Positions 9,926-40,649 are shown, counted from the first letter of the stretch. The stretch: DNA of 64,000 nucleotides from Methanosarcinaceae archaeon (GCA_020055655.1 JAIPUR010000010.1:1-64000); one strand, 5' to 3'. Translations and numbers: made by a program. The notes: a model not told the origin generated them from the sequence alone.

Positions 9926-10945
9926 TCAGGCAAGAACTTCATCAATTAAGAATGGTGGATAAAATACACCTTTTTCTGTAATAATGGCCGTCACATTTTC
10001 CATGGGCGTAGCATCAAAGGCCGGATTGTAGACTCTTACATTGTCAGGAGCGATTTGAATATCCTTGAAAAAGCGCAACTCATTCTCGTCCCTAAGCTCG
10101 ATAGTAATGGTATCTTCCCATCCTTCCGGATCAAATGTGGATACTGGAGCAGCTACATAGAATGGTATCTCATGTTCCATAGCAAGTACGGAATGTGTGT
10201 ATGTTCCGATCTTGTTGAACACCGAATCTCCGGTTATCCTGTCTGCGCCAACTATCACTTTGTCTATCATGCCCTTTCTCATAACGTGTCCTGACATGGA
10301 GTCGCTGATAAGTGTTACCGGGATATTGTCCTGTATGAGTTCCCATGTGGTGATTCTGCTTCCCTGATTCAGTGGACGTGTTTCGCAAGAAACTACATTT
10401 ATTTCCTTTCCAGCTTCCACTGCAGAACGAATAACTCCAAGTGCCGTTCCCCAATCCACGCATGCCATCTTTCCTGCATTGCAGTGTGTCATGACAGTGT
10501 CTCCATCGTCCAGCAACTTGGCACCGTATTTTCCCAGCTTCTTATTTGTGGCAACATCTTCGTCTGCAATATTCTTCGCTTCTGAGAGTACAACATCCTT
10601 GATCCCCGCAAGATCATACGCGTCAGCCATTGCAGCTATAGTTCTGTTTACTCCCCATGCAAGGTTAATTGCTGTAGGTCGTGTGGCTACTATGATCTTT
10701 GCTGCTGCCTTGAGATCTTTTTCCAGGGCTTCCATGTTGTCTGCACTACTACGGGTTGCCGCAAGTGCAACACCATATGCACCTGCCGCTCCAAGTGCCG
10801 GAGCTCCTCGTACGCGCAAGGATTTGATAGCTTCACAAAGCGAACCAAGTGTTTTGCATTCGATGACCTTGTATTCCACTGGCAAAAGCGTCTGGTCTAT
10901 CATTACAATAGATTTGTTTTCTTCATTCCAGTCTATAGTTCTCAT
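9926..10945 (-). CDS. mtnA: S-methyl-5-thioribose-1-phosphate isomerase (MtnA)
   Basis: A 339-residue enzyme converting methylthioribose-1-phosphate to the ribulose form in methionine salvage. The family motifs are present: SLRVRGAPALGAAGAYGVAL near residue 42, the catalytic Cys155 in MTHCNAGKMACVDWGTALG, TRPLNQG, and Asp234 in VGADRITGD. These separate it from the closely related eIF2B-alpha and ribose-1,5-bisphosphate isomerase proteins. Methanogens also use this step to process 5'-deoxyadenosine. It appears monocistronic, 146 bases from the divergent HD gene. Confidence 0.9.
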   Translation of the reverse strand: MRTIDWNEENKSIVMIDQTLLPVEYKVIECKTLGSLCEAIKSLRVRGAPALGAAGAYGVALAATRSSADNMEALEKDLKAAAKIIVATRPTAINLAWGVNRTIAAMADAYDLAGIKDVVLSEAKNIADEDVATNKKLGKYGAKLLDDGDTVMTHCNAGKMACVDWGTALGVIRSAVEAGKEINVVSCETRPLNQGSRITTWELIQDNIPVTLISDSMSGHVMRKGMIDKVIVGADRITGDSVFNKIGTYTHSVLAMEHEIPFYVAAPVSTFDPEGWEDTITIELRDENELRFFKDIQIAPDNVRVYNPAFDATPMENVTAIITEKGVFYPPFLIDEVLA

Positions 10946-33972: not shown

Positions 33973-34050
33973 TCGATATAAGGTCTATGTTTAGCAACTA
34001 CTTGTTTGCTTATGCAGCGATCGGAATTGATCTTAGAAAAGGGATATCTA

Positions 34051-34446
34051 ATGAAAATATGTGTCACAGCTACTGCAGAAGGACTAGAATCTTCCGTTGA
34101 CCCTCATTTTGGTCGATGTGTGTACTTCCTAATTGTGGATGATGGGTCAATGGATTTTGAATCAGTACCAAATGAAAGTTTTTCAGCATCTGGAGGAGCT
34201 GGTATTCAGGCAGCTCAACAGGTGCTCAATAAAGGTATAGATGTGCTTATCACTGGAAGCCTTGGTCCAAATGCATTTCCATTAATTTCATCTGAAAATA
34301 TTGAAATTTATGAGTGTGCTACAGGCTCGGTATCAGAAGCCATTGCTTCTTACAAAAACGGTTCATTAGGGCGCATCGAGGCTTCTAATTCACCTGGAAA
34401 ACAAGGTGGAAAGCAGCGCAATGGAAGTTCCCAAAAAAATAACTAA
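34051..34446 (+). CDS. NifX/dinitrogenase iron-molybdenum cofactor-family protein (first copy)
   Basis: A 131-residue RNase H-like fold protein starting MKICVTATAEGLESSVDPHFGRC, with ASGGAGIQAAQQVLNKGIDVLITGSLGPNAF. This is the NifX/NafY/ORP family that holds Fe-Mo or Mo-Cu clusters. The SSVDPHFGR motif is the family hallmark. I start at 34051 and drop 15 upstream residues of the open frame. It is the first of a run of plus-strand genes with short gaps, through 37252. Confidence 0.9.
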   Translation: MKICVTATAEGLESSVDPHFGRCVYFLIVDDGSMDFESVPNESFSASGGAGIQAAQQVLNKGIDVLITGSLGPNAFPLISSENIEIYECATGSVSEAIASYKNGSLGRIEASNSPGKQGGKQRNGSSQKNN

Positions 34447-34477
34447 TCAATAACAATACGCATGGAGATATGATATA

Positions 34478-34867
34478 ATGAAAGTAAGTGTACCCTCAAA
34501 TGGAAATGGTGGACTTGGTGATATGGTTGGTCAGCATTTTGGACAGGTTCCAAATTACACCGTCTATGACACGGAGTCAAAAGAAGTAAAGATAATCCCA
34601 AATACCAGTGAACACAATGGTGGGGTAGGTCTTCCCCCTGAACTTATGTCAAAGGAAGGTGTCCACGTAATGCTATGTGGTGGACTTGGGAAAAAAGCAG
34701 TTGATATGTTCGAGCGATATGAGGTTGATGTTTTTGTTGGTGCAAATGGCCTTGTAAAAGATGCTATCGATTCATGGAACTCTGGTAATTTAGCAAAAGC
34801 TACTAAGGATAATTCATGTAGTGGACATGACCACGATCATGATCACAGTGACGGACATTGTCATTGA
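34478..34867 (+). CDS. NifX/dinitrogenase iron-molybdenum cofactor-family protein with His-rich tail
   Basis: A 129-residue protein of the same family as the preceding gene: MKVSVPSNGNGGLGDMVGQHFGQ, SEHNGGVGLPPELMSKEGVHVMLCGGLG. The C-terminus CSGHDHDHDHSDGHCH is a strong divalent metal-binding tail, probably for Ni, Zn or Cu. The G-x-HFG motif replaces the canonical PHFGR. It lies 31 bases after the first copy and 19 before the MinD-like genes. Confidence 0.9.
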   Translation: MKVSVPSNGNGGLGDMVGQHFGQVPNYTVYDTESKEVKIIPNTSEHNGGVGLPPELMSKEGVHVMLCGGLGKKAVDMFERYEVDVFVGANGLVKDAIDSWNSGNLAKATKDNSCSGHDHDHDHSDGHCH

Positions 34868-34886
34868 TCTTTTTTGAGGTGTGGGT

Positions 34887-35741
34887 ATGAAGATTGCAAT
34901 CGCAAGTGGTAAAGGGGGCACGGGGAAGACCACAATAGCCGTCAATCTTGCTATATCACTTGGCAATGCACAATTGCTTGATTGTGATGTTGAAGAACCC
35001 AATTGTAATCTTTTTCTTAGGCACGATATGGAAGAGTTCGAAGATGTAACTCTTCCTGTTCCTCTGGTCGATAAAGAAAAATGTGATCTCTGCGGAGATT
35101 GCGCAAACTTCTGTCAATACAATGCAATTGCTTCTCTTCCTTCTGGTGTAATGGTATTTCCAAAACTGTGCCATGGATGCGGCGGCTGTGCTCTTGTTTG
35201 TCCTGAAAATGCAATTACAGAAAATACGCGTTCTATCGGAATTATTGAGCGCTCGGCAGATTGGAGTCATGTTGACCTGTGGCAGGGACTTTTGCATATT
35301 GGGGAACCTATGGCATCTCCAGTTATTCATCAGTTGCAGGAACATATATCTGAAGATAATAATGTTGCAATAATAGATTCTCCTCCTGGGACTGCCTGTC
35401 CTGTGATAGCTTCACTATCTGGGATGGATTATTGTATTCTGGTAACAGAACCCACTCCTTTTGGTCTGCATGACCTTAAGCTTGCGGTGGATGTGGTTCG
35501 TCAGCTAGGTATTCCATTTGGTGTTCTGATCAACCGAAGTGACATTGGTGATAGCAGAGTTGAAGAGTACTGTGTTTCAGAAAATATTCCTATTTTGATG
35601 AAGGTGCCAAATAACAGGGAAATAGCTGTTCTCTATTCAAAAGGAATTCCATTTGTAACAAGCTTACCAGGTTGGAATAATAGGTTTGTACATATGTTTG
35701 CTAATATATGTGAACAACTCTCTACAAGGGCGGCTGAATAA
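34887..35741 (+). CDS. MinD-type ATPase with inserted ferredoxin domain (first copy)
   Basis: A 284-residue P-loop ATPase of the Mrp/MinD superfamily with two [4Fe-4S] motifs inserted after the first strand pair: CDLCGDCANFCQYNAI (about 60-75) and CHGCGGCALVCPENAI (about 93-108). Walker A is SGKGGTGKTTI, and DSPPGTACPVIASL the switch region. The ATG at 34887 is preferred to the GTG at 34881, with GAGGTG upstream. Paired copies like this are typical of ORP/NifX-type clusters and are thought to load clusters onto the NifX-like proteins. Confidence 0.92.
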   Translation: MKIAIASGKGGTGKTTIAVNLAISLGNAQLLDCDVEEPNCNLFLRHDMEEFEDVTLPVPLVDKEKCDLCGDCANFCQYNAIASLPSGVMVFPKLCHGCGGCALVCPENAITENTRSIGIIERSADWSHVDLWQGLLHIGEPMASPVIHQLQEHISEDNNVAIIDSPPGTACPVIASLSGMDYCILVTEPTPFGLHDLKLAVDVVRQLGIPFGVLINRSDIGDSRVEEYCVSENIPILMKVPNNREIAVLYSKGIPFVTSLPGWNNRFVHMFANICEQLSTRAAE

Positions 35742-36650
35742 ATGGTGAAGCAAATTACAATAGTAAGTGGAAAGGGCGGTACTGGTAAAACCACTATTTC
35801 TTCTGCATTTGTTTCTCTTGCAAATGATCTTGTCATTGCAGATTGTGATGTTGACGCTGCTGATATGCATCTTTTGCTTGATCCGACTCTCCTGAAAACT
35901 GATGATTTTTATGGCCTAAAAGTGGCCAATATTAACACAGAGTTGTGTACTGCTTGTGGGGACTGTTTGGATGCATGCAGGTTTAATGCAATAGATGGAT
36001 CTTTTGATGTTGATATTTTTTCATGTGAGGGATGTTCGGTATGTGAATATGTCTGTCAGCAAAATGCTATATCAATGATCGAAAAGAAAGCCGGTGAGTC
36101 CTTCAGTTCAATGACTCGCTTTGGGCCAATGGCTCATGCAAAACTGGGTATTGGTGAAGAAGCGAGTGGTAAACTGGTCTCAACAGTTCGAAATAATGCC
36201 AGGGATCTTGCTGCGGAATTCAATAAGGATCTTATCATAATTGATGGTCCCCCTGGAACTGGATGTTCTGTGATAGCTGCAATAACGGGTGTTGATATGT
36301 TGCTTGTAATTACTGAACCCACTGCTTCAGGTATTCACGATCTTGAACGAGTACTCGAACTTTCCAGTCACTTCAGGATACCTGCTGCAGTTTGCATTAA
36401 CAAATACGATCTGAATGAGAGTAATACGTTGTCTATCCGGGAGCTTTGCACTGAAATGGGTGTAGATGTTATTGGCTTACTTCCTTATAGCAGAACGCCC
36501 GTTGATGCCATGTTAAATGAAAAGACAGTACTTGAATTCACAGATGATGACTTCACATCAGTTGTTCGTTCTATTTGGGATAATCTACATGACCGATTAG
36601 TTTCCAGTGCGGAAACTGTTGATATTACTTTGAAAAGCTCTCTTATGTGA
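35742..36650 (+). CDS. MinD-type ATPase with inserted ferredoxin domain (second copy)
   Basis: A 302-residue paralogue of the preceding gene and directly adjacent to it. Walker A SGKGGTGKTTI, ferredoxin motifs CTACGDCLDACRFNAI and CEGCSVCEYVCQQNAI, then DGPPGTGCSVIAAI. The two proteins probably form a heterodimer, as in the ORP complex. The identical architecture in tandem suggests an old duplication within the operon. Confidence 0.92.
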   Translation: MVKQITIVSGKGGTGKTTISSAFVSLANDLVIADCDVDAADMHLLLDPTLLKTDDFYGLKVANINTELCTACGDCLDACRFNAIDGSFDVDIFSCEGCSVCEYVCQQNAISMIEKKAGESFSSMTRFGPMAHAKLGIGEEASGKLVSTVRNNARDLAAEFNKDLIIIDGPPGTGCSVIAAITGVDMLLVITEPTASGIHDLERVLELSSHFRIPAAVCINKYDLNESNTLSIRELCTEMGVDVIGLLPYSRTPVDAMLNEKTVLEFTDDDFTSVVRSIWDNLHDRLVSSAETVDITLKSSLM

Positions 36651-36679
36651 GGTCTTAGTCCATTCTAAGGGGTATTATT

Positions 36680-37252
36680 ATGAAATGTGCACTGTGTTCT
36701 GAAAAGAAATGTCGGGAAGGTAAGGACTGTTTTGGTATAACTGAAGAAATCTCTTACAAAGGATATGACCTTGAATCAATGAAGGCTGCAGCTGCCATAG
36801 AGTCTGAATATTATATGCAAAAGACCCGGCTTGAGGAACTAATTCTCTTTTCTCAGCAAATGGGCTATGAAAAACTCGGTATTGCTTTTTGTGTTGGACT
36901 GGAAAAAGAAGCTGAGCTTATCCAAAAGATCCTTGAACAGGATTTTGATGTGTATTCTGTATGCTGCAAGGTTTGTGGGATCGAAAAGAGTGAATATGGT
37001 CTAAAAAAATTAAATCCTGATAAATATGATCCAACATGTAATCCCTTGGGTCAGGCTATGATGCTTGCAAAAAATGATACACAATTGAATATCATTGTTG
37101 GTTTATGTATGGGGCACGATATTATTTTCACACAAAATTCCAAAGCTCCGGTGACTACTTTAATAGTCAAGGACAGGGTTTTGGGTCATAACCCTGCAGC
37201 TGCGATCTATTCAGGATATCACTTGAAAAAGAGATTTGGTCTGGATAGCTGA
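36680..37252 (+). CDS. DUF1847 cysteine-rich protein
   Basis: A 190-residue protein. It starts MKCALCSEKKCREGKDC, four cysteines that can bind a metal or cluster. The rest is an alpha/beta domain with YEKLGIAFCVGLEKEAE, VCCKVCG and DPTCNPLGQAMMLAKNDTQLNIIVGLCMGHD, matching DUF1847. The function is unknown. It is last in the plus-strand operon, 29 bases after the second ATPase. Confidence 0.87.
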   Translation: MKCALCSEKKCREGKDCFGITEEISYKGYDLESMKAAAAIESEYYMQKTRLEELILFSQQMGYEKLGIAFCVGLEKEAELIQKILEQDFDVYSVCCKVCGIEKSEYGLKKLNPDKYDPTCNPLGQAMMLAKNDTQLNIIVGLCMGHDIIFTQNSKAPVTTLIVKDRVLGHNPAAAIYSGYHLKKRFGLDS

Positions 37253-37305: not shown

Positions 37306-38328
37306 CTATGTTAAAAGTTCAGTGAGTTCTATCTCCTCGCCCATTCTCAATTGATCTCGAAGGAGGGTAATCTTCCTGTCCATCTTTTCAAGGTATTTCA
37401 GATGTTCTTTCTCATCATTTGTAGTTTTTAATCGTTTATGTATGCCGCCATTTTTTATTACCAGTCTCTGATCTGCTGACAGTGCCAGAAGGGGGTCATG
37501 CGTACTGATCAAAACGATTTTGTTATTACTTACCAGAAGCTCCAGGGACCTGATCTTATCGACTCCGGCGTTCTCTATTTCATCTATCAGCACCACGGAT
37601 GCAGGGCTGAGAAGTGCTGTATCTGCTATCATAAGGGCGCGCGATTGTCCGCCTGAGAGTTCTGTAACTGGAGTTTTTTTGCTGAAAGTCTCTCCTGCCA
37701 GAATATTTGCAGTATCATATATCTTCTGGACTGTGTGGGACAGCTCATCCGCCATACGACTCTCGGCATGCATGGTCAGAAAATCCTCGACACTAAGGTC
37801 CATAACAAAGTTCATGTTCTGTGAAAGTTGAGCGATGAAACGCCCTTCTGTTGAAAAACGCTCCTCATCGGTTGGGACCTGGCCATCCAGGAGTATTTTG
37901 CGCCCTGTGGGTGTATCTCCCTGGGCAAGGGATTCGATATCGCCCAGAAGGCGTGACTTGCCTGATCCTGTAGGGCCCACAATTGCTGTTACTTCGCCTT
38001 TTTTCAGTTCAACTGAATAAGCTTCTTTTTTGCCGTTCTTATCATGTCCGGGAACCACTTTCAGGGATTGAACTGTGAATCCATCTCCCTGCTGAAGATC
38101 TCTGACCTGTTCAATAAATAAAAAGAAACCATCTAAAAAAGCTGAATAATTACTTCCCTTTTCAATAAAATGTTCATTGCAGGGTGACGTTTCGAGTTCT
38201 TCCAGCTTCTTGTCTCCAAATTTTGCAGCATCGATAGCAAATGAGGAGAAGTATTCCTCTACCCAGGGAATTCTCTCTATGAGTTCATTTATACTCAACT
38301 CAAGCATTTCCATCTTCAATCTAATCAT
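37306..38328 (-). CDS. ABC-type ATPase with atypical N-terminal domain (third gene of the DUF1858 operon)
   Basis: A 340-residue ATPase. The first 110 residues (LELSINELIERIPWVEEYFSS ... LDGFFLFIEQVRDLQQ) are unlike any transporter domain and look helical. Walker A GPTGSGKS, signature LSGGQSRALMIAD, Walker B VVLIDEIENAG and H-loop STHD are intact; the catalytic Glu after the Asp is kept (DEIE). The nucleotide-binding domain therefore appears functional but no membrane permease is encoded. Its start overlaps the GTPase gene by eight bases. It is a soluble partner in a three-gene operon of unknown function. Confidence 0.8.
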   Translation of the reverse strand: MIRLKMEMLELSINELIERIPWVEEYFSSFAIDAAKFGDKKLEELETSPCNEHFIEKGSNYSAFLDGFFLFIEQVRDLQQGDGFTVQSLKVVPGHDKNGKKEAYSVELKKGEVTAIVGPTGSGKSRLLGDIESLAQGDTPTGRKILLDGQVPTDEERFSTEGRFIAQLSQNMNFVMDLSVEDFLTMHAESRMADELSHTVQKIYDTANILAGETFSKKTPVTELSGGQSRALMIADTALLSPASVVLIDEIENAGVDKIRSLELLVSNNKIVLISTHDPLLALSADQRLVIKNGGIHKRLKTTNDEKEHLKYLEKMDRKITLLRDQLRMGEEIELTELLT

Positions 38329-39016
38329 CTCCTCTGAAATTCATAAGCTTTGAAATGCCGATCTGTCTGTCATCCCCGATCTTTCTCTCTCCAAGACAGT
38401 ATGAACATAGAGCTCCTGGCATGGTAAAGCGAAGTATTGCTCCCTGAAGTGTTTCAATTGCAGGTGTTCTTTCCACAAGCTTTGCAAGGTAAAAACTACC
38501 TTGTCCTGTAACTCCATTGATGTGAACGATGGTGCTCCGGGGGTTGACTTGCCTGACTCTGTATGCAAAAACCTCACGCTCTGCCTGGGAAACAATATCC
38601 CCTTTAGTAATAGCAACAATATCTGCACTTTTTAACATTGGGCCTATCTTTTTTGGCGTATTGACACCACTGAGGTTATCAATAACACAAATTGCCAGAA
38701 CGTCCTTGACATGAGGGGAACATCGATTACAAAGTCCGGCACTTTCGGTGATCAGAAAATCGAAGTTTCTCTCCTTGGCCCAGCTGAGAGCTTCTTCAAT
38801 ATTACTTACAAAGAAGTGATCCGGGCATAGTCCTCCGGAAAGCCCGGTTCTGACGGGAATTCCGTGAGTGGAATAGATTTCCTCATCCTGGGCTGAGATG
38901 CAATCGAATTTAACCGCACCAATCGAAAAACCTCTGTGTTTGAGCTCTTCAATGGTCTTGATAATGATGCTGGTTTTTCCTGAAGATGGAGGGCCTGCTA
39001 TAGTAACAAGCTTCAA
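38321..39016 (-). CDS. HypB/UreG-like SIMIBI GTPase (second gene of the DUF1858 operon)
   Basis: A 231-residue P-loop protein. Walker A is GPPSSGKTSIIIKTIE, and the metallochaperone-like region is FLITESAGLCNRCSPH, where HypB has ENVGNLVCPA. The base-specificity motif is TKGD (AITKGDIVSQ). A second cysteine pair, CSYCLGERKIG, lies near the C-terminus. The fold belongs to the GTPases that insert nickel or cobalamin (HypB, UreG, MeaB), but the Cys arrangement is different from each. It overlaps its neighbours at both ends (four and eight bases). Confidence 0.82.
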   Translation of the reverse strand: MKLVTIAGPPSSGKTSIIIKTIEELKHRGFSIGAVKFDCISAQDEEIYSTHGIPVRTGLSGGLCPDHFFVSNIEEALSWAKERNFDFLITESAGLCNRCSPHVKDVLAICVIDNLSGVNTPKKIGPMLKSADIVAITKGDIVSQAEREVFAYRVRQVNPRSTIVHINGVTGQGSFYLAKLVERTPAIETLQGAILRFTMPGALCSYCLGERKIGDDRQIGISKLMNFRGDD

Positions 39017-40248
39017 AAGACACCTCCCGTAATCGTGAATTGTTTATTAAAGACCTCTGAGATATTTTTTTTCAACTGTCCTACGTCAGTATTCATCAGG
39101 AAATCCCATCCGACCCAGTAGAGTGATTCAACATCCTCAAGTTTATTCTCAACTTCCGGATTTGTTGTAGGGAAGAGCGCCTTGGCAGATATCTCGCCAA
39201 ATTCTTTTCCACAAAGGAAATCCGTGATCTCCTTTACCCTTTCAGCTCCGCTTTTTTTGACCAGCATCTGAACTGGGCTTACGATTGCACCCTCTGTTGG
39301 CATGGTGATAGTTACTCTGGACTTGTTCTGGATCTTTTTTGTGAAGAAGTAAGGCATAATGTACATGGGCGCTACGTCATCTTTTTTGCTGTCTATCATT
39401 TTAACCATCTGTGATGGATGTAGTCCTGTATACATTGATGCTGCAAGTTTTTTGATTCCTTCCATGCCATACATCTGATAGAACGGGATCAGCACGCCGT
39501 TACAGAAAAATCCGTTCTGTCCACGCATAATAACTTTGTTCTTGTATTCTTCTTTTAGAATATCTTCCCAGGATCGTGGCCTTGAATCTCCTTCCATGAG
39601 TTCGTCTATTGTAACCAGGACGAGAAGGTTTGCAGAGATCATGGTAAACTGATCCCGTGGGTCTGCAAAGTCGATATTTTCCAGATCAGGGTTCATTGGA
39701 GATGGATTCAGGTTTAGAAAATAATCCTTGCTAAGAAAGTTTTCCTGGAATGGTCTGTGGTAGAAACTGTTTATGTCAGAGCTGATGATTATATCCGGTA
39801 ATTCTTCAATTGATGTAACCGAATCCATATAGGCATAATATGACATTTCATGATTGACATTACCCTCTACAAGTGAATGGATCACATTATCCATTTGTTT
39901 GCTGTAATCGTCTGAGAAATCATCAAGTGCACGATTAAAAGGCATCTTCATACCACAGGGCAAAAGGGCAAGCATTGTCAGCTCCTTTTGTCTTTCCGGA
40001 GAATCTGCAAGCGTGAAGTCTCTCTTTTCTTCATTGTCCGAAACAGTCTGGTTCAGGAGTTCAATAAAAGCATCCTGATTGACTGATACCATCGACAGGG
40101 CAGTTTTTAATTTAAGTAGTGGGCCAAGTTTTTCGAGTATTTCACTGTTTTCGAATTTTCTCATTCCATGTTGTTTGAATGTTTTCAGTAAAAAGGGATA
40201 TTCAGTTAAGATCTTGTATATGCTCATTGTTTCATCAATTTTTTTCAT
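39013..40248 (-). CDS. DUF1858 plus solute-binding-protein-fold protein without signal peptide (first gene of operon)
   Basis: A 411-residue protein. Residues about 8-65 (MSIYKILTEYPFLLKTFKQHGM ...) resemble DUF1858, a small domain in which a Cys-free helical bundle is usually followed by redox proteins. The remainder matches a type II periplasmic binding protein (LALLPCGMKMPFNRALDDF, IIISSDINSFYHRP, NNPSPMNPD-like, VIMRGQNGFFCNGVLIPFYQ, PTEGAIVSPVQMLVKKSG). There is no signal peptide or lipobox, so it should be cytoplasmic. The ATG at 40248 has GAGGGG upstream. It is followed by the GTPase and ATPase genes with overlapping ends. Confidence 0.8.
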   Translation of the reverse strand: MKKIDETMSIYKILTEYPFLLKTFKQHGMRKFENSEILEKLGPLLKLKTALSMVSVNQDAFIELLNQTVSDNEEKRDFTLADSPERQKELTMLALLPCGMKMPFNRALDDFSDDYSKQMDNVIHSLVEGNVNHEMSYYAYMDSVTSIEELPDIIISSDINSFYHRPFQENFLSKDYFLNLNPSPMNPDLENIDFADPRDQFTMISANLLVLVTIDELMEGDSRPRSWEDILKEEYKNKVIMRGQNGFFCNGVLIPFYQMYGMEGIKKLAASMYTGLHPSQMVKMIDSKKDDVAPMYIMPYFFTKKIQNKSRVTITMPTEGAIVSPVQMLVKKSGAERVKEITDFLCGKEFGEISAKALFPTTNPEVENKLEDVESLYWVGWDFLMNTDVGQLKKNISEVFNKQFTITGGVF

Positions 40249-40649
40249 GTTTTCCCCTCTGGTACTTTTGGATAACTTGCCCCGACTTGTCTTTGAACAA
40301 TATTGCAGTCAAAAGAAGAGCTGATATCTCATTTTCGAGTGATTTTGAATTTGTATCAACCCTCGCTTTTCTGTTTCCGGGATCTTAGTTGTTCTAATGG
40401 CGATACAAACATATAAGTATTATCATATAAGAAAAACCATTCCGGCTTTTACTCTATAACTGTTCGAGAGAAGAATAAAAAGCTAAATCCTATAATCATT
40501 GATCTCTTCCGCTGCTTCAGGAAAGAAAAAAGATCTATAATTCTGTAGTATCTTACTTTTCCGGGAGATATTCTGGTAGTTTGGGGTATGCTTGATATAA
40601 AGTCGATACAAAAGGTAGCATTTTTATGCTTCTTTTGCCTATTTTTTTC
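40249..40649. other. Intergenic region between the DUF1858 operon and the MBL gene
   Basis: About 400 bases without a supported gene. It holds a direct repeat CATATAAG (40410-40417 and 40424-40431, 14 bases apart) that overlaps the likely leftward promoter (minus-strand CTTATATG runs). The leader to the DUF1858 gene would be about 150 bases. The rightward promoter of the MBL gene lies somewhere near 40560-40620 but is unclear. Confidence 0.4.

Follow-up and report, generated by a model that had tools for sequence, protein, structure and literature searches.

A permease-free set of a binding protein, a HypB-like GTPase and an ABC ATPase is linked to nitrogenase genes and may deliver molybdenum inside the cell

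A stretch of 64,000 nucleotides from Methanosarcinaceae archaeon (GCA_020055655.1 JAIPUR010000010.1:1-64000), referred to here as the window, carries three overlapping genes on its minus strand: one for a solute-binding protein (SBP) with a DUF1858-type domain and an SBP_bac_6 domain (39013..40248), one for a HypB/UreG-like SIMIBI GTPase of the Pfam cobW/HypB/UreG family (38321..39016), and one for a soluble ABC ATPase with an ABC_tran domain and no cognate permease (37306..38328). We concluded that these three genes, hereafter the trio, form a widespread set that is conserved beyond chance and apparently undescribed, and that a link of the trio to nitrogenase is well supported. On balance, though by a modest measure, we consider it probable that the trio is an intracellular, permease-free module that delivers a heterometal for the nitrogenase cofactor, with molybdenum (Mo) as the cargo in the window. 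An earlier interpretation of the window (the sequence-only reading) had described an operon of this kind, and open reading frames (ORFs) were found exactly where it had placed them, with overlaps of 8 bases (ABC/GTPase) and 4 bases (GTPase/SBP).

Homologs were collected by scanning GTDB genomes with an alignment of the GTPase, which returned 495 relatives. The loci analyzed were the best 80 of these, ranked by nearness to a Methanosarcina-type homolog rather than to the window; their genes are ORF calls made in this analysis, and several of the loci are metagenome-assembled genomes. The ABC gene lay within 200 bp of the GTPase gene on the same strand in 76 of the 80 loci and within 1.2 kb in 79, the sole locus without a nearby ABC gene being near a contig end. 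An SBP gene was present in 72 loci, and the exact order SBP-GTPase-ABC, with every gene adjacent, was found in 57. The hosts belong to Clostridia, Negativicutes, Desulfuromonadia, Alpha- and Gammaproteobacteria, Spirochaetes, Fusobacteria, Bacteroidota and archaea, so the co-occurrence in archaea and clostridia that had been anticipated for the three genes was borne out. A search of PLSDB gave a single match, a Fusobacterium record of chromosome size. No published description of the trio was found in the open-access literature, a scope that most subscription papers fall outside.

A maximum-likelihood tree of 78 SBPs resolved four clades. Clade A has FecBCD or nitroreductase genes as neighbors, and clade B (support 100) has the gene for the hybrid-cluster protein (HCP) or for a small conserved protein, c10; clade C (support 86) contains the window, and clade D is small, with members from Acetobacterium and Bacteroidales. 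Genes of the nif or mod type lay within the fetched flanks at 17 of 29 loci in clade C, 4 of 16 in clade A and 0 of 18 in clade B (clades A and C versus B, Fisher p 2e-4). The window SBP groups with Methanosarcina-like sequences, and this group is sister (SH-aLRT 99) to SBPs of Desulfuromonadales, all four of which have nifB in the locus (L104, L112, L123 and L127), NifB being called as the best NCBIfam family with a score under the cut-off and a match that stops before the C-terminal domain. The gene order was nifK-nifX-nifB-trio in L123 and L127, and nifD-nifK-nifX-trio-nifB-modA-modB-modC-nifV in L104. In addition, modABC, modE or nifV stood by the trio in Pelosinus and Geobacter-type loci. 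Within clade C, L106 reads trio-modE-modABC, and in Pelosinus nifV, the trio and modABC occur together; two loci, L074 and L080, also encode an Anf-type delta subunit at a distance of about 7 kb. At a Syntrophomonas locus (L089), a riboswitch of the molybdenum cofactor/tungsten cofactor (Moco/Tuco) class (RF01055, 85 bits) directly precedes FecDBC-SBP-GTPase-ABC. This may be the seven-gene operon of S. wolfei reported under three Moco/Tuco RNAs, with genes predicted for molybdopterin (MPT) synthesis, molybdate/tungstate transport and unknown functions (PMC2408646). The region just upstream of this riboswitch-led operon (L089:1-2100) encodes another SBP, an ABC fragment and, besides these, a methyltransferase.

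The window-type trio most likely handles molybdenum. The sequence-only reading had considered molybdenum, nickel or iron-sulfur cofactors; the nif and mod genes uphold a molybdenum/nitrogenase link, and nickel found no support, with no recurring hyp, ure or coo neighbors in the trio loci. The basis first given for a metal cofactor, the adjacent NifX/MinD-ferredoxin island, is weak evidence, and better evidence came from the other genomes. In the window itself no nif, vnf or mod cluster was found around the trio; its positions 34006-37252 encode a pair of NifX/NifB_C-like proteins, two MinD-type ATPases that carry ferredoxin domains, and a DUF1847 protein. In L046 the trio likewise has NifX-like and DUF1847 genes as neighbors, and in Clostridium magnum (L077) it adjoins a NifX/MinD-ferredoxin island. 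Across the window's class, nifH scored over the cut-off in 79 of 150 genomes and in all 18 genomes with a window-type SBP (hypergeometric p 3e-6, kinship ignored); the corresponding p was 0.02 within the Methanosarcina-like genus alone (a sister genus, probably Methanosarcina) and 0.14 within the genus of the window genome, probably Methanolobus (hereafter "same-genus").

The neighborhoods could also be read from the uptake side, with the trio unloading or sensing chelates imported by FecBCD or ModABC (metallophore processing, sorting or storage) for any use of Mo, vanadium (V) or tungsten (W), molybdopterin enzymes included. FecC was encoded in 18 of the 80 loci, ModABC, ModE or ModD adjoin the trio in the Pelosinus and Geobacter types, and the Moco/Tuco riboswitch of L089 fits such a role, as do the genes for a TonB receptor, FecBCD, an ATP-grasp protein and a nitroreductase that surround the vanadium type described below. 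DUF364 genes, whose products were proposed as possible heavy-metal chelation proteins in a Mo/W/V context (PMC2954201), recur as neighbors in a few loci. However, this explanation accounts neither for the position of the trio by nifX and nifB in L104, L123 and L127 nor for the hosts that have nif and lack Moco genes, and we regard it as a serious but unlikely alternative. Moco itself was rejected as a universal link, MoaC being present in only 24 of 40 genomes. The importers ModABC, WtpABC, TupABC and VupABC resemble the trio in handling Mo, W or V oxyanions (for the trio, a proposal) with an SBP fold and an ABC ATPase, and ModABC is often a close neighbor of the trio; these importers, however, have an exported SBP and a permease, and the trio has neither.

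The SBP matched DUF1858 (7.8e-11), a domain of this type forming approximately residues 1-75 at the N-terminus, and SBP_bac_6 (2.2e-66). Its maximal 13-residue hydropathy within the first 40 residues was 0.78, compared with a median of 2.79 for FecB lipoproteins of the same loci, and with FecB as the positive control none of the 78 SBPs had a strongly hydrophobic N-terminus. The prediction of a cytoplasmic binding protein without a signal peptide was thereby confirmed at the sequence level. Foldseek placed ferric-binding FbpA/FutA and 2-aminoethylphosphonate (2-AEP)-binding proteins as the nearest solved folds (E 1e-13 to 1e-10, 10-15% identity); a PDB sequence search with a single SBP query gave no match, and one with the SBP profile gave weak FbpA-type matches and nothing else. 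The trio SBP differs from FbpA/FutA and the 2-AEP-binding proteins in its cytoplasmic location, its DUF1858 domain and two residues, Cys98 (in LLPCGMK), which is near-invariant, and His277 (in GLHPSQMVK), which is invariant in all 78 SBPs. In the AlphaFold model (pLDDT 89.5), Cys98 immediately follows the binding domain's first strand, and both residues probably line the binding cleft.

Outside one supported subclade of 13 clade A SBPs, all SBPs in which the residue could be read (63 of 63) have Cys98; none has it within that subclade, where V, I, M or L takes its place. This group, which we call the vanadium subclade, is monophyletic, so the loss of Cys98 counts as one event rather than many. 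All 12 of its genomes tested encode an Anf/Vnf delta subunit, and a delta-subunit tree, anchored by the NCBIfam families vnfG and vnfK and with AnfG/VnfG of high-GC genomes identified by motif, placed a VnfG in each. The trio adjoins vnfK inside the vnf cluster of Rhodopila (L061) and lies within the vnf-nifV cluster of two Methanosarcina-like genomes (L187/L050 and L188/L041). A trio-independent search for VnfG covered 317 genomes of one order, that of Magnetospirillum (L075): 13 scored over the cut-off, five of them already known as trio carriers, and three of the eight newly found had genes for SBP, GTPase, ABC, ATP-grasp and nitroreductase proteins within approximately 15 kb of vnfK. No trio was found near vnf in the remaining five (three on contigs of 13-16 kb; no genome-wide search was made), and among Fe-only (AnfG) controls the trio was near the gene in 0 of 7, two on very short contigs.

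Several further genes accompany the vanadium-type trio. An ATP-grasp protein resembling D-Ala-D-Ala ligase and a nitroreductase flank it (L061:3796-4818; L057, L062-L064 and L075), and a TonB receptor and FecBCD lie near some members, possibly as metallophore genes. A phosphonate-type transporter after vnfDGK in Azotobacter has been suggested to act on vanadate (PMC4465626), and L057 has a comparable transporter pair close to the trio; VupABC was the only characterized vanadate transporter as of 2014 (PMC4284476). A near-perfect palindrome, GTTATGTT...AACATAAC, was also observed before anfH and vnfH of Methanosarcina-like genomes (L187:1957-2356; L188:1120-1519 and 9926-10325) and may be a ModE-type site.

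The GTPase matched Pfam cobW/HypB/UreG at 1e-12. Its best NCBIfam family was hypB, with 54.6 bits against a cut-off of 121.2, and it also failed the UreG equivalog cut-off; since the score is far under the hypB cut-off, the protein is HypB-like but not HypB, in agreement with its first description as a HypB/UreG-like GTPase. Three pairs, C64-x2-H67, C96-x2-C99 and C204-x2-C207, were invariant in all 79 members compared, paralogs included. In the alignment, CPDH coincides with the Cys/His motif of HypB (C--HLDAH), giving a HypB-like metal site, and GLCNRC adjoins the HypB switch-II cysteine (NLICP). The GTPase thus resembles the metallochaperones HypB, UreG and CobW in its SIMIBI fold and alignable metal motif, but it carries the additional C96-x2-C99 and the C-terminal C-x2-C. 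Unlike HypB and UreG, it has a constant ABC partner and usually an SBP, and its linkage is to nif, mod and vnf rather than to hydrogenase or urease; no recurrent hypA or hydrogenase neighbor was found among the gene clusters of the 80 loci.

The ABC ATPase was found as first described, with intact motifs (Walker A GPTGSGKS, an LSGGQ signature and Walker B VVLIDEIEN) and an odd N-terminal domain: ABC_tran (1e-16) covers residues 104-250, preceded by approximately 100 additional residues. Homology links this N-domain (38077..38328, minus strand) to the SBP's DUF1858-type domain (hhalign probability 92%, E 7e-7). ABC ATPase and SBP thus have a docking-type domain in common, and docking would be its function. 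SufC of SufBCD and component A2/AtwA are soluble ABC ATPases of metallocenter assembly; like these, the trio protein is a permease-free ABC ATPase that could drive an assembly step, but it has a GTPase and an SBP instead of SufB/D or McrC partners.

The importer-like folds of the SBP and ABC ATPase might alternatively mark an ordinary ABC importer whose permease was lost or is supplied in trans. This is scarcely credible, as the family members examined lack a signal peptide, nearby permeases have their own ATPases, the N-domain of the ABC protein is of the DUF1858 type and its Walker B reads DEIEN, and the GTPase partner is constant. The sequence-only reading had expected no co-conserved permease. 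None adjoins the trio in the window, which agrees with it; elsewhere FecC or ModB does occur, each accompanied by its own ATPase, as for the FecBCD importer that adjoins the trio in one subclade.

The ABC-GTPase pair also occurs apart from the SBP. In paralogous pairs of the same family, an Fe-S protein (PF04060) replaces the SBP, which suggests that ABC-GTPase is a reusable ATP/GTP core with exchangeable cargo subunits. Two such pairs (L045:5822-9172 and L048:4717-9157) lie between genes that we take, from names given by eye, to be cysteate-synthase-like and sulfopyruvate-decarboxylase-like, as in coenzyme M synthesis, and a third (L049:4250-7646) lies beside a DUF39 gene that is presumably homocysteine-synthesis-like, again named by eye. 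At L054:4083-6710, the GTPase and DUF39 were identified and nothing else of this core.

These paralogs, which are joined to an Fe-S protein and lie by DUF39 and coenzyme M genes, would suit a general delivery of iron or Fe-S clusters, with iron or a cluster as the SBP's ligand and with complex Fe-S enzymes such as nitrogenase and HCP as the proteins that the module matures. The FbpA/FutA-like fold of the SBP points the same way, as do the HCP genes and Crp-type regulators in the loci of one SBP clade and an HCP gene divergent from the trio in the same-genus genome G003 (L055:4645-6264), which echoes the bacterial HCP-type loci. Against this stand the mod genes, ModE and the Moco riboswitch, which indicate Mo, the Cys98 switch, which tracks V versus the rest, and four Methanosarcina-like genomes that have the trio and no HCP; we consider iron delivery rather improbable. 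HCP was likewise rejected as a universal link, being present in 33 of 40 genomes and absent from these four. In many HCP-clade loci, an 80-residue protein without a Pfam match is encoded directly after the ABC gene (L118:6984-7235; orthologs in L090, L094, L096, L099, L100, L103, L111, L116 and L135). Rfam gave no match at the trio in the HCP-type loci scanned, and a cobalamin riboswitch in L083 was rejected as a trio element because it belongs to the next operon.

On the same strand as the trio, hgcAB follows it downstream at a short distance in nine same-genus genomes (L046:9464-10827; L056:10050-11422; L137-L141, L143 and L144), with membership assigned by NCBIfam (HgcA 441 bits, HgcB 115 bits). 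The trio could accordingly be imagined as an accessory of mercury methylation, serving HgcAB or related corrinoid proteins. Yet HgcA was found neither in four Methanosarcina-like trio genomes searched nor in any bacterial locus, and the window's genome has its hgcA on a separate contig (C16). We therefore rejected this link as same-genus synteny only, and a corrinoid role seems very improbable.

Upstream of the window's trio, the operator-like element GGAA-N6-TTCT (40430..40443, minus strand) resembles the NrpR operator consensus GGAAN6TTCC and is followed downstream by a TATA-box-like CTTATATG (40410..40417, minus strand), whose position is conserved among archaeal trio promoters. GGAA-N6-TTC(C/T) was present, just upstream of the TATA-like box, in all 18 archaeal trio promoters examined: the TTCC form in six Methanosarcina-like and one same-genus promoter, the TTCT form in eleven same-genus promoters, the window included. 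Operator and box were combined in 17 of the 18, the eighteenth having the operator with a diverged box, and the combination preceded 19 of the 220 genes counted in the same loci, trio genes included. In Methanococcus maripaludis, GGAAN6TTCC is the NrpR consensus and precedes nif, glnA and two operons for molybdate transporters; NrpR controls nif there, and control of the molybdate-transport genes was predicted (PMC2723118). Since no exact GGAAN6TTCC site turned up ahead of nifH in the genome of the window, NrpR control of the trio in this genus is put forward as a suggestion.

NifQ is a Mo donor that is absent from cyanobacteria (PMC4284476). Like the trio in our proposal, it hands Mo to the assembly line of the iron-molybdenum cofactor (FeMo-co), but the two are unrelated proteins: a Pfam scan found no NifQ domain (PF04891) in the trio proteins, nor any in the window's genome. 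Of the non-proteobacterial trio genomes tested, a single one had NifQ; in Proteobacteria, NifQ and the vanadium-type trio coexist. We rejected the trio as a plain replacement for NifQ, given that NifQ absence is uninformative outside Proteobacteria and that most V-type Proteobacteria have both.

A number of observations weigh against the delivery of Mo or V to nitrogenase. The nearest solved folds of the SBP bind ferric iron, phosphonate or polyamine, not molybdate. Clade B hosts mostly lack nif (nifH in 3 of 15), and Moco genes are missing from several genomes of this HCP clade; the family is therefore not devoted to Mo and V only. Mo nitrogenase does not depend on the trio, as about a dozen same-genus genomes have nifH and no trio. 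In the genome of the window, nifH lies on a contig other than the one that carries the trio. A Methanosarcina-like genome (G138) has vnfG and only a Mo-type trio. Finally, NifQ absence is expected in these taxa regardless, and proteobacterial genomes with the V-type trio mostly have NifQ.

For the nitrogenase-directed module that we favor, we proposed the following mechanism, in which ligand identity, direction of transfer, physical complex and target are all inferred. The cytoplasmic SBP would capture a small Mo species (an oxo- or thio-anion, or a chelate), probably via Cys98 and His277, and the Cys/His site of the HypB/UreG-like GTPase would serve to accept or relay the metal. The dimer of the ABC ATPase could dock via the DUF1858-type domain common to ABC and SBP and spend ATP to force release of the metal or of a partner. 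Mo would thereby reach FeMo-cofactor assembly (NifB, NifX and NifEN) in organisms without the known Mo donor NifQ, and the trio of the sister subclade would play the same role for vanadium. More tentatively, and with less than even confidence, we suggest that the trio represents a new class of intracellular heterometal insertase that places Mo or V onto the nitrogenase cofactor, with the choice set partly by position 98 (Cys in the Mo type, an aliphatic residue in the V type) and with the ABC-GTPase core serving a second time, alongside a different adaptor, in the synthesis of coenzyme M and homocysteine.

The proposal bears on two questions: the route of Mo to FeMo-cofactor in diazotrophs that lack NifQ (archaea, clostridia, most Desulfuromonadia and cyanobacteria), and the route of V to FeV-cofactor. 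If our proposal is correct, the trio would be the missing Mo donor of these nitrogen fixers and the V donor for FeV-cofactor, and a single mechanism would then combine a soluble ABC ATPase with a HypB-type GTPase. As a compact, conserved candidate that occurs in Mo-linked and V-linked forms and offers one residue as a candidate for specificity, the trio makes both questions testable, and it may be an added part for moving nitrogenase to new hosts.

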